64,000 nucleotides of DNA, taken from contig JADCEN010000015.1 in NCBI GenBank assembly GCA_020250175.1, forward strand, positions 1 to 64,000, written 5' to 3'. The stretch's first letter is position 1, and each line of letters opens with the position of its first letter. The position numbers were made by a program, and so were the translations under genes. The DNA comes from Rhodobacter sp. GTDB lineage: Bacteria; Pseudomonadota; Alphaproteobacteria; Rhodobacterales; Rhodobacteraceae. This document shows positions 34,183-51,882 of this stretch, one piece after another. The notes beneath the pieces were generated by a model. The model did not search any database. It was not told the origin of the DNA and worked only from the letters and a program-made list of their open reading frames with translations.

Positions 34183-35097
34183 TTAGGCACTTGCGCGCTC
34201 GTCCTTCCCGACATGGCCGATGAACTGGTCGTAAAGTGTGCTGACGCTTTCCATGCGGGCCTCGACTTCTGCGGCGCCAAGGACCTTGAAGACACCGTTG
34301 GCAAGAAGGCCGATCAGGCTGCTCATGGCCGATGTCGCATCCCAGAAATGGTTCAGGTCCGTCTGCACGGTCAGGATCTCAGAGACTTTCCCGCGTGCCC
34401 AACTGCAATAGGGGTCCGAGATCAGCGTCACCGGGATTCCGCGTGCCTCGGCGGCGAAGGCAAGGTCCCGCGTCAGACGCGAATAGCGCCGTCCATCGAA
34501 AACGACGAGGCAGGTCTTTGACGGGTCCGACAGCAGGATTTCGGCAAAATGCCCCCCCGCAACATCCACCTGAAACACGCCGGGCCGCAGATATTGCAGG
34601 CTGTTTGCCAAACTCGCGCCATGCCCGCGCTCGGCCTGAAACCCGGCAACGAAGACCTTCGGACAATGGGCAAGGCGCTGCACGACACGGTCAAACTCTG
34701 CGGTGACAGCCAGGGCATAAACCGCCGTAAGGGCAGCGATTTCCTTTTCCAGCGCGATGGACAGTTGCCGGTTGCCCATCAGGCTGCGCTGATGAAATTC
34801 TTGCAGCTTGTCGCCGATCAGCCAGGCAGGTTCGCCCGAACCGGATCTAAGGCTCGCCTTCAGGTCCTTGATGTCGTCATAGCCGAGCGCCCGACAAAAC
34901 CGACTTATGGACGCCGCGCTGACCCCAGCCTTTTCAGCCAAGCTTGCGCCCGTCTCGAAGGGAAGGTCACCCAGATTGGCCAGAAGATGATCCGCGATGC
35001 GCCGTTCAACCTTGCTTGCAGAATTCGCACAGGCAGTCAGCCGGGCGATCAGCTCAGCAGAACGGTCGTCAGGCTTTTCGCTGACCAGTTCAGGCAA
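34183..35097 (-). CDS. MurR/RpiR family transcriptional regulator (second)
   Basis: 304 residues if translation begins at TTG 35097, which has AAAGGGAG seven bases upstream and gives an N-terminus similar in length to the paralogue at 28348. An ATG at 35148 in frame would add 17 residues but lies next to an operator-like palindrome and has no clear ribosome site. The HTH reads LPFETGASLAEKAGVSAASISRFCRALG and the SIS domain includes FVAGFQAERG and VFDGRRYSRL. It heads the M81/deacylase/SDR set and is divergent from the racemase/GNAT pair, so it probably controls both. Confidence 0.82.
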   Translation of the reverse strand: MPELVSEKPDDRSAELIARLTACANSASKVERRIADHLLANLGDLPFETGASLAEKAGVSAASISRFCRALGYDDIKDLKASLRSGSGEPAWLIGDKLQEFHQRSLMGNRQLSIALEKEIAALTAVYALAVTAEFDRVVQRLAHCPKVFVAGFQAERGHGASLANSLQYLRPGVFQVDVAGGHFAEILLSDPSKTCLVVFDGRRYSRLTRDLAFAAEARGIPVTLISDPYCSWARGKVSEILTVQTDLNHFWDATSAMSSLIGLLANGVFKVLGAAEVEARMESVSTLYDQFIGHVGKDERASA

Positions 35098-35099
35098 AA

Positions 35100-35128
35100 T
35101 GGCACTCCCTTTGGAAAGAAAAGTGCCA
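35100..35128. repeat. Inverted repeat enclosing the ribosome site of the second RpiR gene
   Basis: TGGCACT (35100-35106) and AGTGCCA (35122-35128) are perfect 7-base complements with 15 bases between. On the minus strand the Shine-Dalgarno AAAGGGAG for the TTG start falls in the loop and at the stem edge. It could be an operator or an RNA hairpin that limits translation. Which applies depends on the true start. Confidence 0.45.
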
Positions 35129-35150
35129 GACAGCGCACATCGGGTCAATA

Positions 35151-37107: not shown

Positions 37108-37338
37108 AACTAGGCGTGCCCCGATGACAACCACGCCTGGCTGTATCCAACAGAGGTCACTCGGGGTGATGCGCTATGGCCAATCCGCCAAAACGCGGTC
37201 GCCAAACCCTTCCCGCCGCCAGTCTGCGCCCCTTCGCGTCGGGATGAGAGAGCCCGACGAAAGGCTCGCGTTGTGTCTTCGTGGCCGCCATTAGATCTTG
37301 ACTCGCCAACTTTCCGGAAATTACACTTTCAATAATAA

Positions 37339-37350
37339 ATTACTCATAAC
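37339..37350. promoter_or_regulatory. GTWA-N4-TWAY palindrome upstream of the DAO/GcvT gene
   Basis: ATTACTCATAAC (reverse complement GTTATGAGTAAT) lies 20 bases before the ATG at 37370 and is followed by CGTAAAA. It is one of four similar sites in this part of the window (others at 43932, 46960 and 51492). The region from about 37310 is AT-rich and also holds TTTCCGGAAA at 37311-37320. IclR encoded at 47052 is the likely binder. Confidence 0.5.
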
Positions 37351-37369
37351 GTAAAATGGAGACACGGAG

Positions 37370-39847
37370 ATGTCCGAAGTGCCCACCCAGAGCGATGCCT
37401 CGGGGAACCTCGAATCTGCGGCAGTGGTCATCGTCGGGGGTGGGGTGGCCGGCTGCTCGGTCGCCTATCACCTGGCAAAACTTGGCGTTCAGGATGTCGT
37501 GCTTCTTGAACGGCGCCAACTAACCTGTGGCACGACCTGGCACGCTGCGGGGATCGTCACCGAGGCGCGCGCGTCTTACAACATGACCCAACTCGCGCGG
37601 TACTCAAGCGAACTCTACGGTCGCCTTGAAGCCGAAACGGGTTTGGCGACCGGGCTCAAGCGCAACGGTTGCATTCGCGTCGCCAAGACCGCCGACCGCC
37701 TGCACGAATTCAAACGCGGCCTCTCGATGGCCCGGAACTTCGGGATCGAGGGCTACGCAGTAAGTCCCGCCGAAATACGCGAGAGGTGGCCGCACCTCGA
37801 GGTGGAAGACGTCGTCGGTGGGACCTGGTATCCGAATGACGGGCAGATCAATCCTGTGGATGTCACGCTGGCCATGGCCGCGGGCGCAAGGCGCGGCGGC
37901 GTTCGCATCCTCGAGAATGTCAAAGTCCAGAATATTCTGGTTGAGAACGCGCGCGCTGTCGGTGTCCAACTCGCCGACCGGGTCATTCGCGCTGGAAAGG
38001 TCGTGATTGCAGGCGGAATGTGGTCGCGTGACTTGGCGCGCACGGCCGGCGCGTCCCTGCCCCTGCATGCGGCCGAACATTTCTATATGGTGACCGAACC
38101 GATCGCCGAGTTGAAACGCAACCTGCCGGTGGCGCTCGTGCCGGAAGAATACGCCTACTACAAGGAAGATGCGGGAAAGATCCTGATGGGATGTTTCGAG
38201 CCGGTCGCCAAACCCTGGGGTCATCAGGGCATTCCGGAGAACTTCTGTTTTGACTCGCTGCCCGAAGACCTCGAGCATTTCGAACCGGTCCTCGATGCGG
38301 CAACGCGCCGCGTTCCCCTTCTGAAGACCGCGGGGATCCAGCTGTTCTTCAACGGGCCGGAAAGCTTTACCCCTGACGACCGATATCTGCTGGGCGAGAC
38401 GCCTGAGGTGCAGGGCCTTTACTGCATCTGCGGGTTCAATTCTGTCGGCATTCTGTCGTCTGGCGGCGCGGGGCGGCTCTTGGCGAGCTGGATCAAGGAC
38501 GGACATTCGCCAATGGATGTGGCAGATGTCGATATCCGACGGATGCAACCCTTCCAGTCGACGAAACAGTATCTTTTCGACCGCACCAAAGAAACGCTTG
38601 GCCTTTTGTTTCAGATGCACTGGCCGTCACGCCAGTATGACACGGCGCGCGGCGCGCGGCGCAGCCCCTTCCACGATCGCCTTCTTGCCGCCGGGGCGAT
38701 CATGACCGAAGGCGCCGGACACGAAAGGCCCGGCCTTTTCCGGCGCAAGGGCGTGATGGAGCCGCTGGACTTCTCTTACGAGCGGCCAAGCTGGTTTTCG
38801 GCGGTGGGTCAAGAATGCCGGCACACCGCGGAAGCCGTCAGCATTTTCGACCAATCCGGCTTTGCCAAGTTCACCGTCGAGGGGCGGGATGCCTGCAAGG
38901 TGCTTGGCCAGATCAGCGCCGGTGAGCTGGACGTGGAACCGGGGCGCATTGTCTATACCCAATGGCTAAACGAGCGCGGGGGGATCGAGGCCGATGTTAC
39001 AGTCACGCGGCTTGGCGCCGACCGGTTCATGGTCGTGACCGGCCCTGCATCGCATACGCGCGACCTTGCCTGGTTGCGGCGGCATGTTCCAGAGGACGCG
39101 CACGCCCATGTGGCCGACGCCAGCGCCGGTCTGGCCATGCTGGCCCTCATGGGCCCCGACTCCCGAGACCTGCTGACGCGCCTGTCCGGAGAGGATCTGT
39201 CAAACGAGGCCTTCCCCTTTGGCAGCGCCCGCGAGATCGAGATCGGATACGCACGGGTTCTTGCGCAACGCCTTACCTATGTGGGCGAACTCGGCTGGGA
39301 ACTCTATGTGCCCGCCGACTTTGCCCAGCACGTATTCGACCGCATCGTCGAGGCGGGCGGCGACAGGTTGCGCCATGCTGGCTATTTTGCGCTGAATTCC
39401 CTGCGCATGGAGAAGGGATACCGCCACTGGGGCCACGACATCGGCGAAGAGGATACGCCGATGGCGGCGGGCCTAGGCTTTGCGGTGGCCTGGAACAAGC
39501 CCGGTGGCTTCCTCGGCCGCGATGCGCTTCTGCGCGCAAAGGCCGAGGGCAAACCGCGCCGCAGGATGGTGCAGATCCGACTTGAGGGCGGTGACAGCGC
39601 TCCTCTCCTGCATCACAATGAGCCAATCGTGCATGACGGGCGAATGATTGGCTCGGTCACCACCGGCGCGTTCGGACATCGTGTCGGGGCATCGCTGGCC
39701 CTTGGCATGATCCGCTCCGAGGACGGCGTGGACGCGGACTTCCTGTCCAAAGGCCGCTTCGAGGTCGAGATCGCCTGCGAACGCTTTCCGGCGGAACTGC
39801 GTCTGGGTGCCTGGTACGACCCGAAGCAGGCGCGCGTGAGGGCATGA
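37370..39847 (+). CDS. DAO/GcvT-fusion dehydrogenase (dimethylglycine/sarcosine dehydrogenase-like)
   Basis: 825 residues with two modules. The N-terminal DAO flavoprotein module (about 17-385) has [19 protein letters not shown] and CGTTWHAAG, in which His58 matches the histidine that carries covalent FAD in dimethylglycine oxidase. The C-terminal GcvT-like, folate-binding module (about 430-820) includes [10 protein letters not shown] and [12 protein letters not shown]. Such enzymes remove N-methyl groups from glycine derivatives and pass the one-carbon unit to tetrahydrofolate. It stands alone on the plus strand, with a GTWA-N4-TWAY site in its promoter shared with the transporter operons nearby. 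The exact N-methyl substrate is open. Confidence 0.87.
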
Positions 39848-39966
39848 AATCGCGACGGGTCAGAGCCCGAGTCACCGGGCTGCTGGCCCAATCATTGCGC
39901 GGCGGTATGGCGGTTGTACGCGGGGCGCGGCAGCATCTGATCGGTCGAGTGGGCGTCTGTTGGCAG

Positions 39967-40854
39967 TCACGCCTTGCCTGATGCCTTTTCAAACAGGACA
40001 AGCCCGGCCACGACCACGCCGACGCCCAGCCATTGCCACCCTTGAAGCCGCTCGCCCAGCACCGCCACGGCAATCATGACGCCGAGCAGCGGCTCGAGAT
40101 TGCTGATCATCGTGGCTCTGACTGGCGAGATATGGCGGAAGGCTGCGAAAAAGGCCAAGAGCCCGGCCGCAGAGCCGAGGCCGGCAAGGGCAAGGCCGAT
40201 CCATCCCGAAGTGGACTCGGGAATGGACCATTCGCCAAGCCCCGTGGCCAGGGCAGAAAAGACCACCGAGGTGACAAGGCTCGAATAGACCATCACCCGG
40301 ATCGAGCTTGCCCCTTTCTGCGCCTCGACAGCAAACAGGATCAGACCGCAGACGGCTACCGAAGCCAGCACGGCGAGCGCAATTCCAACCGGGTCCAAAA
40401 CTGCCAGTTCGGGGCCAAGCGCCAGGGTCAGACCAAACAGAACCGCTATGGCAATACCGATCTTGCGGCCGTTCAACCGCTCGGTCCCACGCAGATGGGC
40501 GACCAACGCTAGAAGCAAAGGGTGTGTAAAGTAGATCAGGACGGCGAGGCTGACCGGAATGTAGGCGACCGAACCGATGTAGCCGTAGGCCATGAACAGA
40601 TAGGCGATGCCCGCAAGAAGGCAGGCCATCAGGGCCTCGCGGCCAATGGCGAAACGTTGGCCCGTGGCAAGCATCGCCAGAGACAGGACCGCGACCGCAA
40701 TCAAGCCGCGGGCGCTGAGCACTGTCAGTGTCGTCGCGCCCGCTTCAAGGGCCAGTTTTGCCGCCGTCGGCACTACAGCAGTCAGGATTGCAGACAAGAC
40801 GACGAGGAGTATCCCGGTGGCTTGCCGGGACGACGAACCGGTTTCGGCTGGCAT
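39967..40854 (-). CDS. DMT family (EamA) transporter
   Basis: 295 residues with about ten hydrophobic spans arranged as two EamA repeats (about 10-145 and 155-290). The second repeat ends GVMIAVAVLGERLQGWQWLGVGVVVAGL, the usual signature. Such inner-membrane proteins export amino acids or other metabolites. It follows the PotC-like permease gene by 12 bases at the end of the operon, so it may release a by-product or excess substrate of the imported compound. A weak hairpin (AGCCCG/CGGGCT at 39864-39881) lies between its stop and that of the convergent DAO/GcvT gene. Confidence 0.88.
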   Translation of the reverse strand: MPAETGSSSRQATGILLVVLSAILTAVVPTAAKLALEAGATTLTVLSARGLIAVAVLSLAMLATGQRFAIGREALMACLLAGIAYLFMAYGYIGSVAYIPVSLAVLIYFTHPLLLALVAHLRGTERLNGRKIGIAIAVLFGLTLALGPELAVLDPVGIALAVLASVAVCGLILFAVEAQKGASSIRVMVYSSLVTSVVFSALATGLGEWSIPESTSGWIGLALAGLGSAAGLLAFFAAFRHISPVRATMISNLEPLLGVMIAVAVLGERLQGWQWLGVGVVVAGLVLFEKASGKA

Positions 40855-40866
40855 TATGGGGGTTCC

Positions 40867-41655
40867 TTACTTCTGCTGCGCCCGGGCACGGCGTTGCAGG
40901 CGCTGCATCAGGATGAACAAGGAGGTCGAAAAAAGGATCATCAATGTCGCGACAGCCGTGTAGGCCGGCGTCATCGGGCTTCGCATCGCTGTGAACAACT
41001 CCTTCGGCAGCGTGCGCTGGTCCGGGCCAGCTAGGAACAGCGCAACGACCACATCGTCGAAGGACGTGGCAAAGGCGAAAAGCGCTCCTGAAGCCATTGC
41101 TGGCATGATGATGGGCAGGGTGACCGACAGGAACGCAAATCGCGGCGTCGCACCGCAAGCCGCTGCTGCGCGCGAGAGATTTGGGTCAAGCAATTCCAGC
41201 GCCGTCAGAACAGGCAACACGACAAAGGGCACCGCGATGATCGTATGTCCAAGAACCAATCCAAGATAGCTGTTGGTCAGGCCAAGCGGCGCCATGAAGA
41301 AGTAGGAGCTGACCGCAATCAGGATCACAGGAACGATCATCGGCGCGATGAAGAGCATCTTGATCGCGCCAGCCCAGCCTGATTGCGACCGGGCGAGCCC
41401 CAAGGCTGAAAGCGTTCCCAGCGCCACTGACAGGACCGTGGCCAGTACACCGACAAACAGGGAGTTCGCGATGGCCTTTATCCACTTATCGCCAAACAGC
41501 ACTTCTTCGTACCATTGCAGCGAAAAGCCCGGCAGCGGGTAACTCACCAGATTGCCGCTTGAGAAGGAGAGCGGAATGACAACCAGAATCGGGGCAATCA
41601 GATAGACCAAAATGGCCGCGCAGAACGTCCAGTAGAGGAGTTTCCAAAGGGACAT
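40867..41655 (-). CDS. ABC transporter permease, PotC-like (second set)
   Basis: 262 residues, six predicted spans. The opening MSLWKLLYWTFCAAILVYLIAPILVV, the YPLPGFSLQWYEEV segment and the EAA loop AAAACGATPRFAFLSVTLPII closely mirror the protein at 3486-4289. It starts 6 bases after the PotB-like gene. It would form the second half of the channel for the binding protein at 42859. Its operon order (D, B, C) is the same as in the first set, except that the ATPase gene lies further upstream, with a flavoprotein gene between. Confidence 0.88.
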   Translation of the reverse strand: MSLWKLLYWTFCAAILVYLIAPILVVIPLSFSSGNLVSYPLPGFSLQWYEEVLFGDKWIKAIANSLFVGVLATVLSVALGTLSALGLARSQSGWAGAIKMLFIAPMIVPVILIAVSSYFFMAPLGLTNSYLGLVLGHTIIAVPFVVLPVLTALELLDPNLSRAAAACGATPRFAFLSVTLPIIMPAMASGALFAFATSFDDVVVALFLAGPDQRTLPKELFTAMRSPMTPAYTAVATLMILFSTSLFILMQRLQRRARAQQK

Positions 41656-41661
41656 GCGACG

Positions 41662-42843
41662 TCACCCTGCAAGTTGAGTGCGGCCGCCCGAAAGTCGTTG
41701 GGCAATCGCATAAAGGACCAGTGTGAGGATCAGCATGATCAGGCCCAGCGTCGCGGCCATGCCCCAGTTTCCTGTGTCGGTCGTATAGTTCGCGACGAAG
41801 AAGGACAGCATCTGATCCGAGGCCCCACCCACAAGAGCAGGCGTGATGTAGTAGCCAAGGGCCTGAATGAAGACCATGAGGCCGCCGGCGACCAGGCCCG
41901 GCGCAGCGAGCGGAAGATAGACCCAGAAGAAGCGCGTGATTGGTCCGGCCCCCAGGCTGGCCGCCGCTTTCATGTACAGAGGCGGAATGCCCTTGAGCAC
42001 ACCATAGAGCGGCAGGATCATGAAGGGCAGCAGGACATGCGTCATCGAGATCAGCACGCCTGTCCGGTTGTAGATGAGGTCTAAGGGCTCCGCGAGAAAG
42101 CCTAGATCAATCAGCGTCTTGTTGATCAGGCCCTCGCGCTGCAAAAGGACGACCCAGCCTGCTGTGCGCACCAGAAGCGAGGTCCAGAAGGGCAAGAGTA
42201 CCAGCACGATCAGCCAATCGGCGGTCTTTTCGCTTACCGAAGTCAGCAGATGCGCGAGGGGAAATCCAAGCAGGATGCAGCCTAGTGTGACAGAACCGCT
42301 GATGAGCAGGGTTCGGAACAGGACATCAATGTAGATGCGATACTCTTCGGGTGCCCACCCAATGTCGCCGTTGAAGCCGCGCTGGAGGTCAAGGGCCGAC
42401 AGAAGGTAGAATCCCGACACCGGCCCGCGCGCCCGCTGGACGACCGCGAAGAATTCCGGACTGGCGAGGTTGGGATCAAGCTCGGCAAAGAAGGCGCTGT
42501 CGAACCGCGTCCCTTCCGGCGCTGCGCCGACCTTCTTGGAAGCGCGCATGATGGTGGTACGCAGGCCCGGAATCTCATAGTTCAGCCGACGTGCAGCGTG
42601 GGCGAGTGTCCCGTTTTCACGGGCAATCACAAGGTCGCTGGCGAACTCAGTGAAAACTGCAGGAGGCAACGGGGCACCATAGTGCCAACCCTCAAGCGCC
42701 TCGATGGTTCGGGGCAGTGCGCGAGGCACTTCGACCTCGCGCACCGACTTTGACAGCAGGCCCGCCATCGGACCTGCAAAGAACACCAGAAGAAAGGCCG
42801 CCAATGGTGCCAAGAGCAACAACCGATGACGGACCTTCTGCAT
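41662..42843 (-). CDS. ABC transporter permease, PotB-like with long insert (second set)
   Basis: 393 residues, almost the same length as the paralogue at 4293-5471. TM1 is near residues 8-30. A soluble periplasmic insert of about 130 residues follows and shares motifs with the first copy: VREVEVPRALPRTIEALEGW, AARRLNYEIPG and FDSAFFAELDP.LASPEFFAV. The remaining five spans and the EAA loop (AAASLGAGPITRFFWVYLPLA) then follow. The insert is therefore conserved between the two systems and may contact the binding protein or ligand. The gap to the binding-protein gene is 15 bases. Confidence 0.88.
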   Translation of the reverse strand: MQKVRHRLLLLAPLAAFLLVFFAGPMAGLLSKSVREVEVPRALPRTIEALEGWHYGAPLPPAVFTEFASDLVIARENGTLAHAARRLNYEIPGLRTTIMRASKKVGAAPEGTRFDSAFFAELDPNLASPEFFAVVQRARGPVSGFYLLSALDLQRGFNGDIGWAPEEYRIYIDVLFRTLLISGSVTLGCILLGFPLAHLLTSVSEKTADWLIVLVLLPFWTSLLVRTAGWVVLLQREGLINKTLIDLGFLAEPLDLIYNRTGVLISMTHVLLPFMILPLYGVLKGIPPLYMKAAASLGAGPITRFFWVYLPLAAPGLVAGGLMVFIQALGYYITPALVGGASDQMLSFFVANYTTDTGNWGMAATLGLIMLILTLVLYAIAQRLSGGRTQLAG

Positions 42844-42858
42844 GGCGGGTCTCCCTGC

Positions 42859-43905
42859 TCAGTTCGTACCGGTCCAGGCCGCCCAACGTTCGGCCAGCTT
42901 GTCACCGTTGTCGTTCCAGAACGTCGCGTCCTCATGGAAGACGACCGCCAGGTTTTCAGGAGCCGTCGGCAACTGGCTGACCAGGGCCGCATCAATCAGG
43001 GCGTCGGCCCCGACCGCCGTGGTCCCGTAGGGCGAATATGGCACCATCAGGGCCTGGTTTTCGGGGCGGCCCATGAACTCGATCAATTTCAGGGCTTCGT
43101 CCCTGTTCGCCGATCCCTTCATGATGACCCAGCTGTCCATCGTGTACGGCGAATCCTTCCAGACCACCTTGAAGTTCTTGCCATCGTTCCTGTTGGCGTT
43201 GAAGATCCGCCCGTTATAGGCGGCGGCCATCACCACGTCGCCAGCGGCCAGCATCTCGATGGGCTGCCCCCCGCTCTTCCAGAACACGAGATCGGCCTTG
43301 ATCGTGTCCAGCTTGGCAAAGGCGCGATCCACGCCCTCGGGCGTTTTCAGAAGGTCATAGACCTGATCCGCAGGGACCCCATCGGCCAGAAGGGCGATCT
43401 CCAGGCTCCATTTCGCGTTGTTGCGAAGCGCGCGCTTGCCGGGGAATTTGGTCGTATCGAAGAAGTCCGCCCAATCCTTCGGTCCTTCGGCAAGCTTGTC
43501 GCCGTCATAAGCCAGCATAATGTTCCAGACCAGGGCACCGACCCCACAAGTGCTGACCGCGCCCGGGATGTAGCGTTCGACCCCGCCGATCGCTGCCGGA
43601 TCGATCTCTTCAAAAAGGCCCTCGTCGCACCCGGCCGCAACTTCGGGCGCCTCGGTCAGGACGATATCCCAGGTGTTGCTGCCGCCTTCGATCTTGGTGC
43701 GCAACACCCCTATGCCGCCGTCCCAGGTTTCCTCGTTGATCGTGATGCCGTTCGCCTCGGCAAAGGGTGCCCAGTAGACGGCATGCAGTCCTTCCTGGTG
43801 CGGACCGCCCCAGCCGACGACCGTCAGGTCATTGGCTGCGGCAGCCTGTCCAAGGCAAGCGACGGCAAAGATGCCCATCGCCATTGTCTTTGCAGTGTTC
43901 TTCAT
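42859..43905 (-). CDS. Periplasmic substrate-binding protein, PotD-like (second set)
   Basis: 348 residues with a signal peptide (MKNTAKTMAMGIFAVACLGQAAA-AND) and mature start DLTVVGWGGPHQEG. It shares with the protein at 5486-6541 the stretch VDRAFAKLDTIKADLVFWKSG, the MSTTF/MAAAY-N-R-I segment, and the C-terminal ERWAAWTGTN. It should deliver the substrate to the permeases at 41662 and 40867. It is first in its operon, with a GTWA-N4-TWAY palindrome 27-38 bases upstream. The ligand is probably related to that of the first set but need not be a polyamine. Confidence 0.88.
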   Translation of the reverse strand: MKNTAKTMAMGIFAVACLGQAAAANDLTVVGWGGPHQEGLHAVYWAPFAEANGITINEETWDGGIGVLRTKIEGGSNTWDIVLTEAPEVAAGCDEGLFEEIDPAAIGGVERYIPGAVSTCGVGALVWNIMLAYDGDKLAEGPKDWADFFDTTKFPGKRALRNNAKWSLEIALLADGVPADQVYDLLKTPEGVDRAFAKLDTIKADLVFWKSGGQPIEMLAAGDVVMAAAYNGRIFNANRNDGKNFKVVWKDSPYTMDSWVIMKGSANRDEALKLIEFMGRPENQALMVPYSPYGTTAVGADALIDAALVSQLPTAPENLAVVFHEDATFWNDNGDKLAERWAAWTGTN

Positions 43906-43931
43906 TTGACTTCCTCCCTTTTGCTCTATTC

Positions 43932-43943
43932 ATAACAAGTTAC
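43932..43943. promoter_or_regulatory. GTWA-N4-TWAY palindrome upstream of the second PotDBC operon
   Basis: ATAACAAGTTAC (reverse complement GTAACTTGTTAT) lies 27-38 bases before the binding-protein start, between it and the end of the upstream flavoprotein gene. The arrangement matches the sites at 37339, 46960 and 51492. Confidence 0.55.
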
Positions 43944-44006
43944 ACCGAATGGACACTCACGCTCCGAACCTCCGACAAGACCTTGCCCGTCGCATATCCG
44001 GATCGC

Positions 44007-45701
44007 TCAGTTGCCCACAGAGATGTGCCGTGCGGCCAGATGGCCGAAAACCAGGGCCGGACCCAGTGTGATGCCCGCCCCCGGATAGGTCCCGCCCATG
44101 AAGCTGGCGGCGTCGTTGCCCACGACATAGAGCCCCGCGACCGGCTGGCCGGAGGTATCGAGCGCGCGGGCGTGGGCATCCGTGCGCATGCCGATGAAGG
44201 TTCCGATGTCACCAGGTACCAGTCGAACGGCATAGAATGGCCCCCGATCAATAGGGGCGACACAGGGGTTCGGGCTGCGCCCGATACTGCCATTGAAGCG
44301 CTGATAAGGGTCCGTGCCCTTGCCGAACTCGGGATCCTCGCCCAAGGCGGCTCCCTTGTTCAGGCGCGAAACGGTCTGGCTCAGGCCCTTTGCGTCAATG
44401 CCGCAGAGCGCCGCCAGTTCGGTCAGTGTATCGGCCCGCTTGATGTATCCCGACGCGATATGGGGCCCGAGGCGACCCGGTCGGGGTGGTGCGGCGCCCA
44501 GGCCATAGGCCCTGATCCCAGCCGAGTCGCAGATGACATGGCAATGGACATCCGGATCATCCCGGCAGGCCTCGACCATGGCCGGCACGAAATCGTGGTA
44601 GGACATGGCCTCGTTGATGAACCGCCGACCGCGCTTGTCGACCGCGATATACCCCGCCTTGCCGCGGTCGATGAAGTGCGGAAAGGGGATCGTCGTCCCA
44701 TCCGGCTGCGGAACCAGAGAGACAGGCACCCAGGCCGCTGGCTGTGCCTGCCCTTCGACGACGGCGACGTTCAGGGACCGGCCAAGCCGGATGCCGTCAC
44801 CGGTGTTGTCGGCAGGTGCCACAGTCCGGTGGTTCTTGCCCGCCGCCACATGGTCATAAAGCCGGGCCCTGAGTTCGTCATTTGCCGGAAAGCCGCCGCA
44901 GGCCAGAACAACCGCCTTGCGGGCGCGGATCGTCCGGCGACCTTCTGGCCCCTCGACCACCGCGCCCGTGACACGCCCCGTTTCCGTCATCAGCTCCACC
45001 ACCGGCGTCTTCAGCATCAGCTTCACGCCGCGTTCAAAAGCCGAGCGGGCCAACATGGCGACAAGTGCGTTGCCGTTCGACAGCCGGGTGCCGCGACTGT
45101 AGCTTACACGGTCCTTCGCATAGCGCAGGAACAGCTTGGTCACGTGCTGGGCCGACGACAGCTTCTTGGTCATCGTGAAGAACTGCGGCAGGTCCTCGCG
45201 CCCCACCATCATTCCCCCCAGGATCGTTGTCGTCTTCAGCGGCGGGCGGAGTTTGTCGAACCATTTCCCCAAGGTACGGCCATCGAAAGGTCGAGGTCCA
45301 AGCGACCGCCCGCCTTTCGAGGCGCCGGGCTGACCAGGGTGGTAATCGCTCCATGCCGGCGACAGCATGTAGGAGACATGGCTGTTGGCCTCGAACCAAT
45401 CCAATATGCTGGCCGCATTGTCGGCAAAGGCTTCGGCCTTGTCGCGGTCCAGGCGGTTTCCGGCTTCGGCCTGCAGGTAGGAAAGGACACCCTCGCGGCT
45501 ATCGGAAATCCCGGCTTCTCGCGCTTGGCGGCTTCCGGGAATCCAGATGACCCCCGCCGAGAAACAGGTCGTGCCGCCAAAGACATCGGCCTTTTCGACC
45601 ATGATCACATCGAGGCCATCAATGGCTGCGGTCAGTGCCGCCGCGAAGCCCGACGCGCCGGAGCCCGCGACCAGCACATCACATTCCAGACCCATCGGCA
45701 T
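44007..45701 (-). CDS. FAD-dependent oxidoreductase (fumarate reductase / 3-ketosteroid dehydrogenase type)
   Basis: 564 residues. The FAD motif VLVAGSGASGFAAALTA is near residue 9, then VEKADVFGGTTCFSAGVIWIPGS. The C-terminal GLYVVGNDAASFMGGTYPGAGITLGPALVFG matches the flavoprotein at 9993-11699 almost word for word. It is expected to desaturate or reduce its substrate with bound FAD in the cytoplasm; no haem or membrane segment is seen. It lies between the ATPase gene (22-base gap) and the PotDBC genes, so the enzyme is embedded in a transport operon. The pairing of this flavoprotein type with a PotABCD set in both loci suggests a shared, unidentified substrate class. Confidence 0.85.
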   Translation of the reverse strand: MPMGLECDVLVAGSGASGFAAALTAAIDGLDVIMVEKADVFGGTTCFSAGVIWIPGSRQAREAGISDSREGVLSYLQAEAGNRLDRDKAEAFADNAASILDWFEANSHVSYMLSPAWSDYHPGQPGASKGGRSLGPRPFDGRTLGKWFDKLRPPLKTTTILGGMMVGREDLPQFFTMTKKLSSAQHVTKLFLRYAKDRVSYSRGTRLSNGNALVAMLARSAFERGVKLMLKTPVVELMTETGRVTGAVVEGPEGRRTIRARKAVVLACGGFPANDELRARLYDHVAAGKNHRTVAPADNTGDGIRLGRSLNVAVVEGQAQPAAWVPVSLVPQPDGTTIPFPHFIDRGKAGYIAVDKRGRRFINEAMSYHDFVPAMVEACRDDPDVHCHVICDSAGIRAYGLGAAPPRPGRLGPHIASGYIKRADTLTELAALCGIDAKGLSQTVSRLNKGAALGEDPEFGKGTDPYQRFNGSIGRSPNPCVAPIDRGPFYAVRLVPGDIGTFIGMRTDAHARALDTSGQPVAGLYVVGNDAASFMGGTYPGAGITLGPALVFGHLAARHISVGN

Positions 45702-45723
45702 CGCGGCTCCTTGCTTTCGTACT

Positions 45724-46830
45724 TCAAAAGATCCAGGCGTCTTCGGGGCGGAAGCGCAGGACGACTGGCTGTCCGACGGTCAGCCCCGCAGGCACCGACC
45801 CAACATTGACTTTGACGGTCCAGTTCTCTGCCCGAAGCCCGCCGTCTTCATCGGAAAGCGCCGCGACAAGCCGCCAGTGGTCACCCTGCTGAATGATGTC
45901 GACCAGCCGTGCGCCGATCTGGTTTCCGGTCTCCAGTTGGCCAGCATCGAGAGCGACTTTCAGGCACTCGGGGCGTACGCACAGAACTTGGGAAGGCCCA
46001 TTTGTGCTGTGGCCTGCCCGACGGCCACGTAAGGTAAGGCCGTTGGCCAAGCGGATTTCCATCTGCCCTGCCGGGGCAACCGGGTCAGGACCGGACTTTC
46101 CCTCAACCTTGTTGTTGTCACCCAGAAAGCCGGCCACGAAGGTATTGCAGGGCGCATCGTACAATTGCTGCGGCGGCCCGATCTGTTCGATCCTGCCGTG
46201 GTTGAAGACCGCTACCCGATCAGACATCACCATCGCTTCGGACTGGTCATGGGTCACGAAGGCCATGGTCACGCCCAGTTCCCGATGCAGACGCCGGATT
46301 TCCAGCTGCATTTCCTCGCGCAGTTTCTTGTCCAACGCCGAGAGAGGCTCATCCAACAGGACCAGGCGCGGCTCGAACACCAGCGCACGCGCCAAGGCGA
46401 CCCGCTGTTGCTGACCGCCGGACAGTTGGTGCGGCATCCGCTCGGCGAACGGCGCAAGCCGGACTTTTTCCAGAGCGCTGGTGACGCGTGTTGCGGTCTC
46501 GCTTCGCGAAAGACGGCGGACCTTCAGGGGGAAGGCGACATTTTCGGCAACTGTCAGATGCGGGAACAGCGCGTGGCTTTGAAAGACCACACCCATGTTC
46601 CGGCGGTGTGCGGGCAGTGTCTCAATGGGGACGCCATCAAATCGGATTGTCCCCGCGCTCGGCCGTTCGAAGCCTGCCAGCATCATAAGGGAAGTGGTCT
46701 TCCCCGACCCGGACGGCCCGAGCAGCGTCAGGAACTCACCTGCTTCTATACCAAGGTTCAGGTTGTCTACCGCGACGACGGTCTTCCCGGCGTAGTGCTT
46801 TGAGACATTTTCGAACTGGATCAGAGACAT
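45724..46830 (-). CDS. ABC transporter ATP-binding protein, PotA-like (second set)
   Basis: 368 residues from ATG 46830 (MSLIQFENVSKHYAG); the frame to 47193 runs through the regulatory region and into the IclR gene. Walker A GPSGSGKTTS, signature LSGGQQQRVALARAL, Walker B LVLLDEPLSALD and FVTHDQSEAM are intact, and a TOBE-like C-terminal domain follows. It should energise the permeases at 41662 and 40867 although the flavoprotein gene is in between. It is divergent from the IclR gene, with a GTWA-N4-TWAY palindrome between them. Confidence 0.9.
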   Translation of the reverse strand: MSLIQFENVSKHYAGKTVVAVDNLNLGIEAGEFLTLLGPSGSGKTTSLMMLAGFERPSAGTIRFDGVPIETLPAHRRNMGVVFQSHALFPHLTVAENVAFPLKVRRLSRSETATRVTSALEKVRLAPFAERMPHQLSGGQQQRVALARALVFEPRLVLLDEPLSALDKKLREEMQLEIRRLHRELGVTMAFVTHDQSEAMVMSDRVAVFNHGRIEQIGPPQQLYDAPCNTFVAGFLGDNNKVEGKSGPDPVAPAGQMEIRLANGLTLRGRRAGHSTNGPSQVLCVRPECLKVALDAGQLETGNQIGARLVDIIQQGDHWRLVAALSDEDGGLRAENWTVKVNVGSVPAGLTVGQPVVLRFRPEDAWIF

Positions 46831-46959
46831 GCGCGTTACTTCACCCCTCAGGCCATAGCATGCGACGGCGGCGACGCGCTTACAGAACGTGCCAGAGAGA
46901 GGGTCATTGACAGCAAGATCCTCGATCCTTGCGCAAACTTGGCTGACTTTACTTTTAGC

Positions 46960-46971
46960 GTAACTAATTAC
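46960..46971. promoter_or_regulatory. GTWA-N4-TWAY palindrome between PotA-like and IclR genes
   Basis: GTAACTAATTAC, extended to CGTAACTAATTACG, lies in the 221-base divergent region. A further GCGTAA half site lies at 46981-46986. It is the most symmetric of the four sites and sits directly upstream of the regulator gene, which fits autoregulation by the IclR protein. Confidence 0.6.
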
Positions 46972-47051
46972 GATAATGTAGCGTAAGGTGCAGGCAACCG
47001 CCTTGTCAATGGCTCCTGAATGCCAGAAAAGAGTGTAGGGAGGCTGGGAAG

Positions 47052-47852
47052 ATGGATACTCGGGCAGAAGAAAGACAGCAGGGTAGCGTTCAGTCGGTCG
47101 AAGTGGCAGGAGAGGTTCTCCGGGCACTGGTTGCGGCGAACGGCCCCATGCGCCTGTCCGACATTGCGCAGGCCTCGGCAATGCATCCGGCAAAGGCGCA
47201 CCGCTATCTCGTCAGCCTGACCCGGATCGGGCTTACCTCTCAGGATTCCTCTACTGGTCTCTACGACCTTGGGCCAATGGCGCTGCAGATGGCGCTCAAA
47301 GGCTTCATCCGCTTTGACATTCTGCGACTGTCCGTCGACTGCATCGAGCAGCTGGGCCGCGAAATCGGCGAGACCGTCGCGCTGGTCATTTGGGGTGAGG
47401 CCGGCCCGAAGTTCATCCGGATGGCAGAAGCGCGTCATGGGCAGGCCAGCACGGTGCCCATCACCCATATCTGCCCGCTCACCTGGTCGGCGACCGGTCT
47501 CTTGTTCAGCACCTACGAAGACCCAGCTCGCACTTCGGCGCTTATCCGGCGCGAAATCGAACAGAGCCAGTTGGTCAACAGGGCCAATGCACCTCAAAGC
47601 ATGGCCGATCTTGAGAAGTTGACTGCGTCGATCCGTTCGAATGGCGTTTCGACAATCGAAAACGGGGGCAACAGTGGCAATGCGGCCATCAGCGCCCCGG
47701 TGTTTGATGCCTCGGGCAAGTTCATCATGGGGATCAGCGTCTTCGCCAAGGCTGGCCGGATTGATACGAGCCTTGACGGCAATCTCGTCCGCAAGATCAC
47801 CAGCGCAACGCGCAGGCTGTCGGATGCCCTGGCCGGACGAAAGAGCTTCTGA
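47052..47852 (+). CDS. IclR family transcriptional regulator
   Basis: 266 residues. The N-terminal winged HTH (about 15-75) has GPMRLSDIAQASAMHPAKAHRYLVSLTRIGL. The C-terminal effector-binding GAF-like domain (about 90-260) includes GETVALVIWGEAGPKFIRM and GNAAISAPVFDASGKFIMGISV. IclR proteins usually act as dimers on short palindromes and respond to a catabolic intermediate. It is divergent from the PotA-like gene and convergent with the M20 amidohydrolase (5-base gap). The four palindromes at 37339, 43932, 46960 and 51492 make it the candidate master regulator of this locus. Confidence 0.9.
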   Translation: MDTRAEERQQGSVQSVEVAGEVLRALVAANGPMRLSDIAQASAMHPAKAHRYLVSLTRIGLTSQDSSTGLYDLGPMALQMALKGFIRFDILRLSVDCIEQLGREIGETVALVIWGEAGPKFIRMAEARHGQASTVPITHICPLTWSATGLLFSTYEDPARTSALIRREIEQSQLVNRANAPQSMADLEKLTASIRSNGVSTIENGGNSGNAAISAPVFDASGKFIMGISVFAKAGRIDTSLDGNLVRKITSATRRLSDALAGRKSF

Positions 47853-47857
47853 AGGCG

Positions 47858-49018
47858 TCAGGCCGGCAGCATGTGCTCGACCAGGTGGCACCAGAACGCC
47901 GCCGCCCTTGGGATCAGTGCATCGTTGAAGTCATAGCGCGGATCGTGAAGCGCCCGGCTGTCGCCGTTCCCGATTGTAAGGAAGCAGCCCTTGGTCACGG
48001 CAAGCATCGAGGAGAAGTCCTCGGAGAACATGTAGGGTCCCGGCAGGTCGACCGTCTCGGGTGCCTGCCCCATCCCGGCAGCCACGCCGCGCACGGCGGC
48101 GGCTAGGGCCGGGTCGTTGTCGCAGGGCGGATAGATGATGTCGTCCTCGAAGGTGACCTCTGCCGTGCAGCCAAAGCTTTCGGCCTGCTGACAGGCGACG
48201 GCAACCACACGCTCACGCAAAAGCGCGGTGGCCTCGGCCGTGACGGTGCGCAGCCCGATGGGAAGATCGACGAAAGGAGGAATGATGGTGGCCGTCCCGC
48301 TGCCATGCATCCCGCCCACCGTCAGCACCCCGGCGTCGATAGAATTGAGGTTGCGCGAGATGATCGTCTGCAGCGCCATGATGATCGACGCCGCGGCAAC
48401 CACCGGGTCTGTCGCCAGATGCGGCATGGCTCCATGCCCGCCCTTCCCCGTGACCCGTATCCGTCCGATGTCGATCCGCGCCGTGATCGGGCCGGGACGG
48501 GTCTTGATCTGGCCCAGTTCCAGGCCCGGCAGGTTGTGGAAGGCGAAGACGGCCTCGACAGCGAACCTTTCGAACAGCCCGTCCTGAACCATGTGCCAGG
48601 CGCCGCCCGACCCTTCCTCGGCGGGCTGGAAGATCAGGTGAATTGTGCCGTCGAATTTTCCCTGCAGCGCTAGGCTTTCTGCTGCGGCCAGAAGGCAGGT
48701 CGTATGGCCGTCATGCCCGCAGGCATGCATTCGGTCGGGGAAGGTCGAGGCCCAGGGCAGCTCGGTCATTTCCTTGATTGGCAGGGCATCCATATCGGCT
48801 CGGATCGCAATGGCTCGGTTGCCCTTGCCCCGCTTCAAGCTGCCCACCACCCCGGTCTTCGCAATACCGGTTGTGACCTCGTAGCCGAACCGTGCTAGTT
48901 CCAGCGCCACGAAGGCGCTGGTGCGGTGTTCGGCGAACTCAAGCTCGGGGTGCTGATGCAGATCGCGCCGGATGGCGGTGAACCGGGGATGGTTGGCATT
49001 CAGCCAGTCGTCATGCAT
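47858..49018 (-). CDS. M20 family amidohydrolase (hippurate/aminoacylase-like)
   Basis: 386 residues. The M20D metal and catalytic pattern is present: MHACGHDGHTTCLLAAA, FQPAEEGSGGAWHMV, and FHNLPGLELGQIKTRPG with the histidine. The lid domain is in the middle and MFSEDFSSML near the C-terminus. Family members hydrolyse N-acyl or N-aroyl amino acids (hippurate, acetyl-amino acids, indole-acetyl conjugates). It is the last gene of the DapB-like/PhzF/RidA operon, following RidA by 12 bases. I infer release of an amino acid from an N-acylated or amide-linked imported compound. Confidence 0.88.
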   Translation of the reverse strand: MHDDWLNANHPRFTAIRRDLHQHPELEFAEHRTSAFVALELARFGYEVTTGIAKTGVVGSLKRGKGNRAIAIRADMDALPIKEMTELPWASTFPDRMHACGHDGHTTCLLAAAESLALQGKFDGTIHLIFQPAEEGSGGAWHMVQDGLFERFAVEAVFAFHNLPGLELGQIKTRPGPITARIDIGRIRVTGKGGHGAMPHLATDPVVAAASIIMALQTIISRNLNSIDAGVLTVGGMHGSGTATIIPPFVDLPIGLRTVTAEATALLRERVVAVACQQAESFGCTAEVTFEDDIIYPPCDNDPALAAAVRGVAAGMGQAPETVDLPGPYMFSEDFSSMLAVTKGCFLTIGNGDSRALHDPRYDFNDALIPRAAAFWCHLVEHMLPA

Positions 49019-49030
49019 GGCAACGCCGCC

Positions 49031-49492
49031 TCAAGGCCTGACCGCAAAGATCGCCGTGACTTCGACCGTGATCCCATCGGGAAGCGATCCCATCCCCACA
49101 GCAGCCCGCGCATGACGCCCGCTTTCGCCAAAAAGCTGGACCATCAGGTCCGAAAAGCCGTTCATCACCTTGGGGTGCTGTTTGAAATCGGGCACAGCGT
49201 TCACCATGCCATGCACGGACAGAAGCCGCTCGACCCGATCGAGCGAGCCCAGGATTTGCCGAACCGAAGAAAGCATGGCCAGGCCGGTCAGACGTGCGTG
49301 CTGATAGGCCTCTTCGACCGTGACATCCCGTCCCACCACCCCGGTGGCAGAGGTTTGCAGGTCAATCAACGGGCCTTCGCCGGACATGTAGAGCAGCCCG
49401 TTGTGCAACACGCCGGGCACAAAATTGCCGATTGGCCCCGGCACTTCAGGCAGGGCAATACCCAGTTCCTTCAATCTGGCTTCCGCGCTCAT
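49031..49492 (-). CDS. RidA family protein
   Basis: 153 residues from ATG 49492 (MSAEARLKELG), with GCAGGA upstream; eight more residues are open in frame but lack support. The YjgF/RidA fold is indicated by GLLYMSGEGP, VRQILGSLDRV and a conserved arginine in SGRHARAAVGMGSLP. The protein is of the longer 150-residue RidA subgroup that neighbours amino acid or aromatic catabolic genes. RidA deaminates reactive enamines and imines, which flavin- or PLP-type oxidation of amino compounds would release. It lies between the PhzF and M20 genes. Confidence 0.87.
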   Translation of the reverse strand: MSAEARLKELGIALPEVPGPIGNFVPGVLHNGLLYMSGEGPLIDLQTSATGVVGRDVTVEEAYQHARLTGLAMLSSVRQILGSLDRVERLLSVHGMVNAVPDFKQHPKVMNGFSDLMVQLFGESGRHARAAVGMGSLPDGITVEVTAIFAVRP

Positions 49493-49519
49493 TCCTGCCC
49501 CCTTTCCGCAAATCATCCC

Positions 49520-50428
49520 CTACAGGGACAACTTCCCTTCCAACACCCGAACCGCACATCCCGCGACCCGCACCGCAACAAGTTCGCCGTCCCGAACATC
49601 CGCTTCCATATCGATGTCGGAAGGCCGACCCATCTCATGGCCTTGCTCCAGCCGGAAAGCATGGGTGCCCTCTTTAAGGCCAAGCGTCCGGAAAAGCTGC
49701 GACGCGAAAAGCGCCGCCGCCGAACCCGTCGCGGGATCTTCGGTGCCCTCGCCCGAAGGATTGAACATCCGGGTGCGATAGTCGGTGGCCGGGTCCAGTC
49801 CGCCCTTGGCATAAAGATAGCCGCCGACCGTCCCAAACGCGTTCAAGATATTGGTCCAATGCGGTTCCTGCGGCCGCGCCCGGGCCAAAGCCTCGGGCGA
49901 GGCGATGGGAACATAGAAGAACCTCGGTCCGCCTTCGTGCAGACCCAAAGGGACTCCGCCTGGACAAATGTCCGATGGGGAAAGGCCCAGAGCTCTGGCC
50001 ACGTCCTGCACCGTAGGCAACTCTGCCGGTACGGAATACGGGACAACCGGCGCGGTGAACTGGGCCCAGGTCGCGCCACCCGTGTTGCGTACCGTCACCC
50101 GGACCAGCCCGGCGACCTCTTCCAGAAGGATCTCGGTTTCGAATGGTCTACCCTGACCATGCATCATTTCGGCCAGAAGGATCGCACAGCCGACCGTGGG
50201 ATGCCCGGCGAAGGGTATCTCATCCGTGGGAAAGAAAATCCGAACGCTGGCGGTATGCGCCGGGTCCTTTGGCTTTCGGACGAAGATCGTCTCGGCGAGG
50301 TTGAACTCGCGCGCGACGGTTTGCATCTCTTCGGTCGAGAGCGCGTCAGCCCCCAGCACGACGCCGAGGGGGTTCCCGCCAAAACGGCGCTCCGTGAAGA
50401 CGTCAAGCGTATGGAACTTCAACTCCAT
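49520..50428 (-). CDS. PhzF family isomerase/epimerase
   Basis: 302 residues from ATG 50428 ([11 protein letters not shown]), with GGAAGG upstream; a longer frame to 50497 overlaps the DapB-like gene. Two mirrored half-domains of the diaminopimelate epimerase fold are visible, with [15 protein letters not shown] and the catalytic glutamate in FNLAETIFV, then [16 protein letters not shown] and [13 protein letters not shown]. PhzF-like proteins isomerise or epimerise small acids; no phenazine genes are present. Its place between a DapB-like dehydrogenase and RidA suggests work on an amino acid-derived intermediate. Confidence 0.87.
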
Positions 50429-50444
50429 TCCGGCCTTCCGGTGA

Positions 50445-51449
50445 TTAGCGATCACCAAGATACTTTCCGACTTCGCCGCCAAAGGCAAAGGCCCCAACGG
50501 TTGAACGTAGCACGATGCCGGGCCTGGACTGAAGAAGGGCGGGGATATGGTTCACCAGCACATTGGCCACCGGGCGGGTGCCGTAGAGCGCAGGCTTGAT
50601 CATCATGTGGGTCGGAACCTCGGCCTCGATGTCGAACTTGTCATAGGTTTCCCAACCCTCGTCGATGCAGACGTGAATCTCCATCTCGATCCGCTGAACA
50701 CCCTTCTCCCAGCCGCGCGCAATCGTCCGGATGCCGGTCGTCGTGCCCTCCTGGCCATAGAATTGCGCTTCATCCTTGGTGACCTTGTCGATCGTCCAGC
50801 CGAAGTAATGGCCGAGACGCTCGAACGACCCTTCGAAGCCAACATGCCCGACGATAACCCCGTCCTTGACCCCTTGGGCATAGGCTTCCTTGGTGACGCC
50901 CATTCCGAAGTGTTTAGCAACGACACTGCCCATATAGGCTCGGAAGTCCCCGTGCCGACAGTACTTGATGCTCTGCACACCGCGGCTTCCCGCACTCAGC
51001 AGCAGGGGGATATCGATATCGACATAGGTCGGCCAAAGGCCGGTGCCTAGGACCGCAACACCGTGCTTCCGGGCAAGATCATCCAGAAGCCTTGTGGACT
51101 CAGGATCATAGGTCGCGGGGCTCGACATTTCTTCCGCAGCGGTGATCACGTTGATCCCTGCAGCCAGCGGCTTCTTCAGCTGTTGATAGGTGTCCTCCAC
51201 ATGGGTCGTCGTCGTGTGGATAAGAACATCGGCCTTGGTCGATGCAAACAGCGCGTCCTCGTCATTTGAGATGAGGATGCCCAGATCGCGACCCAACCCG
51301 ACAACATCTCCCAAGTCTCGTCCGGCAACTGGCCCCTTGTCCAATGCTCCGACGATCTTCAACCCCGTTTTCGTGGACAGGGCTTTGACGACTTCTTTGC
51401 CAACCGAACCGATACCGAAAATGATGACGCGCGTATCTTGCATGGCCAT
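50445..51449 (-). CDS. DapB-like NAD(P)H-dependent dehydrogenase (2,4-diaminopentanoate dehydrogenase-like)
   Basis: 334 residues. The N-terminal Rossmann domain has VIIFGIGSVGKEVVKAL. The middle carries VLIHTTTTHVEDTYQQLKKPLAAG and NVITAAEEMSSP, in the style of dihydrodipicolinate reductase-related proteins, but it is about 70 residues longer than DapB. That size and wording fit the 2,4-diaminopentanoate dehydrogenase / amine dehydrogenase group, which removes an amino group from diamino acids with NAD(P). It is the first gene of its operon, behind two palindromes at 51479-51503. The substrate is not identified. Confidence 0.8.
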   Translation of the reverse strand: MAMQDTRVIIFGIGSVGKEVVKALSTKTGLKIVGALDKGPVAGRDLGDVVGLGRDLGILISNDEDALFASTKADVLIHTTTTHVEDTYQQLKKPLAAGINVITAAEEMSSPATYDPESTRLLDDLARKHGVAVLGTGLWPTYVDIDIPLLLSAGSRGVQSIKYCRHGDFRAYMGSVVAKHFGMGVTKEAYAQGVKDGVIVGHVGFEGSFERLGHYFGWTIDKVTKDEAQFYGQEGTTTGIRTIARGWEKGVQRIEMEIHVCIDEGWETYDKFDIEAEVPTHMMIKPALYGTRPVANVLVNHIPALLQSRPGIVLRSTVGAFAFGGEVGKYLGDR

Positions 51450-51478
51450 GGTCCCTTTCCTGACGTGACGGCTATAGC

Positions 51479-51503
51479 TTTTACGTAAAACGTAATCTAT
51501 TAC
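51479..51503. promoter_or_regulatory. Two adjacent palindromes upstream of the DapB-like gene
   Basis: TTTTACGTAAAA (51479-51490) is a perfect 12-base palindrome. GTAATCTATTAC (51492-51503) follows one base later and matches the GTWA-N4-TWAY sites at 37339, 43932 and 46960. They lie 30-54 bases before the ATG at 51449. A doubled site here would suggest two dimers or overlapping regulators. Confidence 0.58.
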
Positions 51504-51615
51504 ATTTTATGGAAGTTATCGGTTGGCTGGCCACCTGTCAACGCTGGGCTAGTATCTCTTGCGTCCGGGAACTCGTTAAAGACAAATCTCCGTATCCCTT
51601 ACGCCAGTCTGGGCG

Positions 51616-51882
51616 TCAGGCAGCGAGAAGGCCGCGCCACTCGGCGAGAGTGGCGGCGCGGGTAAGCTTTTAGGTGTCGCGGTCCTGAAGATGGCGTTCC
51701 GTCGGAAAGTGGTTGTGGACCGAGGCATGGACTGATGCGAACTTCTGCAATGTTCGCATCCGCCGGAACCGCAACATCGCGCGCTCCCGTCGTCGGAAAG
51801 GCAAGTGCGAGTTCTCGGCCCTGTTGTTGAGCCTGCGGCCCATCTCCCGGTCATCACCGCGGCCAAGGTCCTTCAGCGGCCT
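51616..51882 (-). pseudogene. IS6-family transposase remnant with an internal stop
   Basis: The minus-strand frame reads PLKDLGRGDDREMGRRLNNR, then AENSHLPFRRRERAMLRFRR, then a segment including KFASVHASVHNHF. This is the C-terminal third of IS6/IS26-type transposases and includes the last catalytic glutamate region. A TAA (51670-51672) stands where relatives have a tyrosine codon, followed by KLTRAATLAEWRGLLAA and the true stop. The catalytic N-terminal part is missing. It is dead, lying between the DapB-like operon and hpaI, and marks an old rearrangement point. Confidence 0.75.

Follow-up and report, generated by a model that had tools for sequence, protein, structure and literature searches.

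Are the uptake and catabolic operons scattered over a 14-kb locus of Rhodobacter sp. controlled by a single regulator, and, if so, by which one? The locus lies within positions 1 to 64,000 of the forward strand of contig JADCEN010000015.1 (GenBank assembly GCA_020250175.1), and this 64-kb stretch is referred to here as the window. A first-pass annotation noticed that four promoter regions share the palindrome GTWA-N4-TWAY and proposed that they form a probable single IclR regulon. These regions precede a DAO/GcvT dehydrogenase gene, a transporter operon led by a PotD-like gene, a divergent pair of PotA-like and IclR genes, and a DapB/Ord-like operon. Leave-one-out matrices support this proposal, and so does comparative genomics, through an operator that is the best match of its locus before the regulator gene in 6/6 members of one IclR clade and in 0/8 outgroups. 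Judged from the sequence, the IclR protein encoded at 47052-47852 very probably acts locally, repressing a single set of genes for uptake and catabolism through four tandem operators of 34 base pairs (bp). Operons that are singly uninformative would thereby become one co-regulated gene set, which provides the principal lead towards the substrate.

The palindrome and the operator around it

The four 12-mers on which the proposal was based, as well as a perfect TTTTACGTAAAA at 51479-51490, are present in the sequence as first described. Within the window, GTWA-N4-TWAY occurs at six places with eight strand matches (37332, 37339, 43932, 46960, 51485 and 51492), and all six places fall within the four intergenic regions of the locus. 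Shuffling of the whole window predicts 0.76 strand matches, and none of 100 shuffles reached the eight observed. Since the promoters are richer in AT than the window, the test was repeated with these four regions alone, and again with their AT-rich neighbourhoods of 71 nucleotides (nt). Dinucleotide shuffles confined to the four regions yielded a mean of 0.074 places, and shuffled neighbourhoods a mean of 0.20; in both cases, 0/2000 shuffles reached six places and none touched all four regions. Other 71-nt stretches with an AT fraction of at least 0.5 are devoid of the motif (0/24). The whole genome (3.89 Mb) holds 21 places, six of which are found in this 14 kb, and the stricter GTAAYNNRTTAC occurs at two genome places only, both in this locus. 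The motif is not over-represented genome-wide, as reversed-pattern controls are commoner (106 and 113 versus 14 and 18), and GTAAYNNRTTAC likewise falls below its reversed control (2 versus 3 per strand). The signal is the clustering of the motif at the locus, not its abundance in the genome.

Alignment with the spacers of IclR homologues places the palindrome in a larger element, TTAC-N7-GTAA-N4-TTAC-N7-GTAA, a 34-bp operator consisting of two tandem palindromes with centres 19 nt apart. The 12-mer as a shared site consequently stands in part: it is real and clustered, but it appears to be only the junction between two flanking palindromes, the putative dimer sites, and not the operator itself. 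This junction, GTAA-N4-TTAC, is a good palindrome in its own right. The information profile over ten sites shows that TTAC is conserved at positions 14-17 from the centre, besides GTAA at 3-6; on the strength of this profile, the tandem reading took the place of an earlier one, a 30-bp dyad flanked by ACGTAA repeats. The register originally assigned to the DAO/GcvT site (37339-37350) had to be corrected, as 37332-37343 fits the other sites, both in leave-one-out matrices and in the four-box pattern.

When the 16 letters of the four boxes are scored, the operators S1 to S4 (Table 1) are the four best of the 63,967 window positions, with 15, 12, 12 and 15 matching letters. All remaining positions, those around a nearby RpiR-type regulator gene included, score 10 at most. 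Among 108 spacings compared over ten regions, 7/4 scores highest, with 124 (next best 110, mean 95, standard deviation 5.3). Four-box scoring is partly descriptive, because the pattern was chosen after viewing the same ten sites. Matrix scans of the homologues and a motif learned from homologues alone are more independent tests. Inside the window, matrices trained on three sites place the held-out fourth first at widths of 14 and 30 bp among all positions outside the training neighbourhoods; at 22 bp, this holds for three sites, and S4 comes third. When a symmetric motif 30 positions wide is learned from the spacers of five homologues, with the window excluded, it recovers S4 at rank 1, S1 at 2, S2 at 14 and S3 at 18, all in exact register. 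A model built from the four window sites (R1) returns S1-S4 only from the genome, a circular result, because these sites trained it.

The IclR protein and its relatives

The regulator has the N-terminal IclR winged helix-turn-helix (PF09339, 5.4e-12) and the C-terminal effector domain (PF01614, 6.1e-14), both above the cut-off. Its own genome contains no other match at E<=1e-40 or at E<=1e-30. The nearest relative found, and the single one from a scan of genome contigs, is a draft genome of Pseudorhodobacter antarcticus (L005), whose IclR is 89% identical; a second order, when searched, yielded a single genome. A 5.6-kb contig of L005 holds open reading frames that correspond to PotA, IclR, M20, RidA, PhzF and the end of Ord, are arranged as in the window in order and strand, and have similar lengths, with IclR and the PotA end matched by alignment and the others by length and position. 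In the PotA/IclR spacer of L005, S3 is retained with changed letters and intact boxes. Orthologues of the S1 and S2 regions, sought by DNA in the L005 draft, were not found, as all ten matches resembled paralogues and reached no more than 96% over 27 bases or 69% over 341.

More distant IclR proteins, with 39-48% identity, were found in two genomes (L004 and L024) and on plasmids of Nitratireductor, Pontibrevibacter and Neorhizobium (L025-L027). Together with L005 they make up a clade set with 39-89% identity to the window IclR. The neighbours at the distant loci differ from those in the window, except for an enzyme dependent on flavin adenine dinucleotide (FAD) at the three plasmid loci. With the 30-bp window matrix, 6/6 clade homologues have the best match of their whole locus in the spacer ahead of the IclR gene. 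Shuffled sequences did as well in 0, 0, 0, 2, 1 and 6 of 500 cases (L005, L004, L024, L025, L026, L027), and in 1, 0, 0, 0, 2 and 1 of 500 in a second run over the six members. Four-box scores of these operators are 11, 13, 11, 9, 14 and 12 of 16 in the same order, and the site is the single best position of its locus in 5/6. The expectation that relatives would keep the sites was thus borne out in part: S3 is kept in L005 and the operator precedes IclR in five distant homologues, weakly in L025, but the S1 and S2 regions were not found in the L005 draft.

Outgroups were taken from 17 plasmid records matching the IclR protein, the three best of which (H1-H3) are themselves clade members. Four outgroups (H4, H5, H9 and H14) were chosen for context before motif scoring and four more (H6, H12, H13 and H17) were added later, so that 11/17 records were compared. 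These IclR proteins have 30-35% identity, and in 0/8 is the spacer the best match of the locus; it ranks 2, 2, 4, 7, 11, 85, 191 and 545. Spacer scores with the 30-bp matrix range from 15.9 to 20.0 in the clade versus -6.9 to 12.8 in the outgroups, whose box scores are 6-10. In a tree of 11 rows including the four outgroups chosen first, the site-bearing IclR proteins form one group with 100/99 support. Computation thus ties the sites and their common architecture to this clade, with conservation of the operator assessed before the IclR gene only. The 34-bp element is an operator candidate for an IclR clade of several alphaproteobacterial genera.

On the plasmids of all three genera, the IclR gene is divergent from a gene or operon with a FAD enzyme similar to ketosteroid dehydrogenase, an apparent regulator-enzyme module. 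These enzymes are 47% identical to the window's FAD enzyme. Plasmids often carry members of this family (111 records at E<=1e-100, with 56% identity at best), and the pairing is, therefore, only suggestive. An SDR protein and a TRAP transporter are also present in 2/3 of these loci.

Promoter geometry and the weighing of alternatives

Several results weigh against the regulon. S2 and S3 are weaker than S1 and S4, and R1 finds S3 only in the L005 draft, in which the S1, S2 and S4 regions were not located. Narrower window matrices perform less well in the clade: at 14 bp, 0, 4, 30, 36, 18 and 160 of 500 shuffles are as good and L027 ranks fourth, and at 22 bp, 0, 0, 8, 29, 7 and 26 of 500. In L025, the four-box fit is poor (9/16, rank 3 with 34 ties), and the register of the best site differs between the window-matrix scan and the homologue-only motif. 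At widths other than 30, the latter agrees with the window partially or off register. The best ranks within 10 bp of S1-S4 are 64, 37, 155 and 3 at width 12; 7, 16, 17 and 1 at width 18; 12, 151, 67 and 1 at width 22; and 4, 19, 13 and 1 at width 26, where the motif is off register. Used as a genome model (3.9 Mb, E<=10), the homologue-only motif reports one place, S4, and leaves S1, S2 and S3 unreported. The outgroups are imperfect controls, since in 5/8 the spacer is short (55-107 nt) and follows a gene that runs in the same direction. In two of the eight (L055 and L056) the spacer match ranks second, and 26 and 24 of 500 shuffled sequences did as well, which slightly lowers confidence in the regulon. 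Box scores of 12 and 11 arise elsewhere by chance in 2/8 outgroup loci, and a score of 11-12 is therefore weak evidence by itself. The promoter of the IclR gene itself is poorly defined, and, finally, proteins of this family have the capacity to activate as well.

The direction of control is suggested by the position of the operators relative to the putative promoters. Hexamers resembling a -35 box start 25, 26, 29 and 29 bp ahead of the 30-bp core at S1, S2, the PotA side of S3, and S4, which corresponds to 23, 24, 27 and 27 bp ahead of the 34-bp operator. A match of at least 5/6 in the range 24-30, a range picked after seeing the matches, has P 0.02-0.04 per promoter under shuffling. The S2 hexamer (4/6, P 0.18) is alone not significant, and on the IclR side of S3 no such hexamer is found in the range 24-30, the best being 3/6. 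The operator centre is 32 (S1), 32 (S2), 135 (S3, PotA side), 86 (S3, IclR side) and 48 (S4) positions from the start codon. Given a -35 box at the observed distance, the operator would cover about -13 to +25. As it would thus lie over -10/+1, downstream of the hexamer, we infer repression. The IclR protein would bind the four operators, presumably as a pair of dimers, one on each TTAC-N7-GTAA palindrome, and would cover -10/+1. It would also repress its own gene through S3, and a pathway compound would act as an inducer, freeing the operators and relieving repression. The predicted gene set comprises an ATP-binding cassette (ABC) transporter (PotA-, PotB- and PotD-like proteins and a second permease), the DAO/GcvT N-demethylase, the FAD enzyme and the Ord-PhzF-RidA-M20 operon.

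IclR proteins act both as activators and as repressors. It is conceivable, although rather unlikely, that the regulon is the same and that the protein is an activator, or an activator at some promoters and a repressor of itself. Consistent with such a division of roles, a promoter-like match, TTTACT-N18-GATAAT, lies over the operator on the IclR side, so that the two sides of S3 may differ. At the four catabolic promoters, however, the operator starts 23-27 bp after the start of the hexamer (a weak one at S2), over -10/+1, which would be an unusual position for an activator.

An unlikely elaboration is that the four boxes, which alternate in direction, form a continuous lattice. Dimers in a second arrangement would occupy the junction dyad GTAA-N4-TTAC, so that the protein could switch between two states on the operator. 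On this reading, the regulon would also mark out a hitherto undescribed route of breakdown for an N-methylated cyclic amine, so far complete in one genome and partial in one close relative.

It is quite improbable that the sites serve another regulator, with its gene elsewhere, and that the IclR gene is only one of its targets. Short AT-rich palindromes are used by other regulators too, and binding by IclR is a prediction. Against this idea, the operator accompanies the IclR clade across several genera despite largely different neighbours, it is not the best match before the eight outgroup IclR genes, and its geometry is that of IclR operators. A chance or composition effect is scarcely credible: although the motif and the promoters are AT-rich and the genome as a whole shows no excess, the local shuffles, the other AT-rich stretches and the independent agreement with homologues all contradict it. 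Repression by the IclR protein through tandem operators, therefore, remains the preferred account of the locus.

Gene content, pathway and known systems

Table 1. Features of the locus (window coordinates).
Feature	Position	Strand	Basis
Operator S1, before DAO/GcvT dehydrogenase gene	37321..37354	-	15/16 consensus letters, tied first in window
Operator S2, before PotD-like gene of transporter operon	43921..43954	-	12/16, tied third in window
Operator S3, between divergent PotA-like and IclR genes	46949..46982	+	12/16, tied third in window
Operator S4, before DapB/Ord-like operon	51481..51514	+	15/16, tied first in window
-35-like TTGACT upstream of S1	37298..37303	+	5/6 or better
-35-like TTGTCG upstream of S2	43973..43978	-	4/6, weak
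-35-like TTGACA upstream of S3 (PotA side)	47004..47009	-	stretch identical in L005
-35-like TTGACA upstream of S4	51536..51541	-	5/6 or better
DAO/GcvT fusion dehydrogenase, dimethylglycine-dehydrogenase-like, probable N-demethylase	37370..39847	+	sequence and profile matches
EamA-type transporter	39967..40854	-	profile match
ABC transporter permease, PotC position by gene order	40867..41655	-	profile match
ABC transporter permease, PotB-like	41662..42843	-	profile match
Substrate-binding (PotD-like) protein, polyamine/GABA/opine type	42859..43905	-	profile match and resemblance to such binders
FAD-dependent dehydrogenase, ketosteroid-1-dehydrogenase-like (PRK06134 type)	44007..45701	-	profile matches
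PotA-like ABC transporter ATPase	45724..46830	-	profile matches
IclR-family regulator, predicted repressor	47052..47852	+	profile matches, tree
M20 amidohydrolase	47858..49018	-	profile matches
RidA/YjgF family protein	49031..49516	-	profile matches
PhzF family isomerase	49520..50497	-	profile matches
DapB/Ord-like dehydrogenase, relative of native amine dehydrogenases	50445..51449	-	profile and chain matches

The gene set probably takes up and N-demethylates a small (N-methylated) amine, to judge from its protein matches. The transporter binding protein resembles binders of polyamines, gamma-aminobutyrate (GABA) and opines; the DAO/GcvT enzyme (825 residues) resembles dimethylglycine dehydrogenase; and the FAD enzyme resembles ketosteroid-1-dehydrogenase. 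Among the chains matched by the Ord-like enzyme are ones that bear the names dihydrodipicolinate reductase and amine dehydrogenase. The enzyme scores 213 of the 400 bits that mark the NCBIfam equivalog for 2,4-diaminopentanoate dehydrogenase (Ord), below that threshold, and its matches place it in the same superfamily. A reasonable guess at the route is uptake of a small amine, removal of an N-methyl group, deamination and cleavage. Homarine, at first a guess at the substrate, was set aside; the literature search gave no title on homarine catabolic genes. The Ord-like gene is rare, present in 1/394 sampled family genomes (E<=1e-40) and 1/385 sampled class genomes (E<=1e-30), in both cases the window's own genome, and no match in the plasmid collection at E<=1e-20.

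Of 179 plasmid records matching the DAO/GcvT enzyme, the 15 homologues listed are 60-64% identical. On a Sphingobium plasmid (L051, 60.4%), etf, purU and folD genes lie directly downstream, and on a Shinella plasmid (L052, 62.8%) they lie within about 9 kb. A third homologue (L050, 64%) has other neighbours, so that these genes are nearby in 2/3 contexts. For both the FAD enzyme and the N-demethylase, homologues on plasmids have mixed neighbourhoods, which do not settle the substrate.

Two features adjoin the locus. At 51673-51849 on the minus strand, immediately upstream of the S4 promoter, lies what remains of a DDE transposase of the IS6/IS240 type (PF13610, 3.1e-08, matching positions 92-136 of the 139 in the profile). 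It possibly marks the point at which the locus was inserted or trimmed. An RpiR-type regulator (HTH_6, with a SIS domain below the cut-off) is encoded at 34183-35148, adjoining an M81 metallopeptidase gene.

How does the locus compare with systems already described? The gene for gamma-N-methylaminobutyrate oxidase (MABO) of nicotine catabolism shares an operon on pAO1 with folD and purU (PMC6214936). The two plasmid homologues of the DAO/GcvT enzyme with etf, purU and folD nearby recall this arrangement. The locus itself differs, as neither folD nor purU is among the 19 proteins scanned in it and its flanks; the likeness runs through the plasmid homologues.

The window IclR has the same domains as BhcR, PcaR/PcaU/PobR and KdgR, matches their models, and also matches a solved chain named KdgR (5y6i). 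Its scores are far below the curated NCBIfam cut-offs (88.5 of 350 bits for BhcR, 56.9 of 284.75 for PcaR/PcaU/PobR and 53.6 of 275 for KdgR), and it is, therefore, filed under none of them. The closest likeness is to operators. Group 1 IclR motifs are reported to follow WTTYC-RYWWWRY-GRAAW, and their tandem operators to have two boxes (GKTYC or WTTYC) in opposite directions, 7-8 nt apart, with a distance of 18-22 nt between the centres of tandem palindromes (Suvorova and Gelfand 2021, PMC8222616). Each palindrome of the locus likewise consists of two boxes 7 nt apart, an N7 that belongs to the best of the 108 spacings, and the palindrome centres, 19 nt apart, fall inside the published range. 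As in that group, the sites lie near gene starts and would serve a small local regulon. Two differences from the published operators are apparent: the box keeps TT-C with a third base that is mostly A instead of Y, which counts against the assignment, and the junction is itself a good palindrome. An orthologous group with the motif of this locus may already stand in the supplementary tables of that study. A literature search, with subscription journals mostly beyond reach, found no title describing this regulon. The regulatory system is of a kind already known and not a new one, and the pathway under its control is uncharacterised. The locus illustrates well how regulation of a familiar kind can govern such a pathway, and the regulon claim, for a case built by computation, holds up well.

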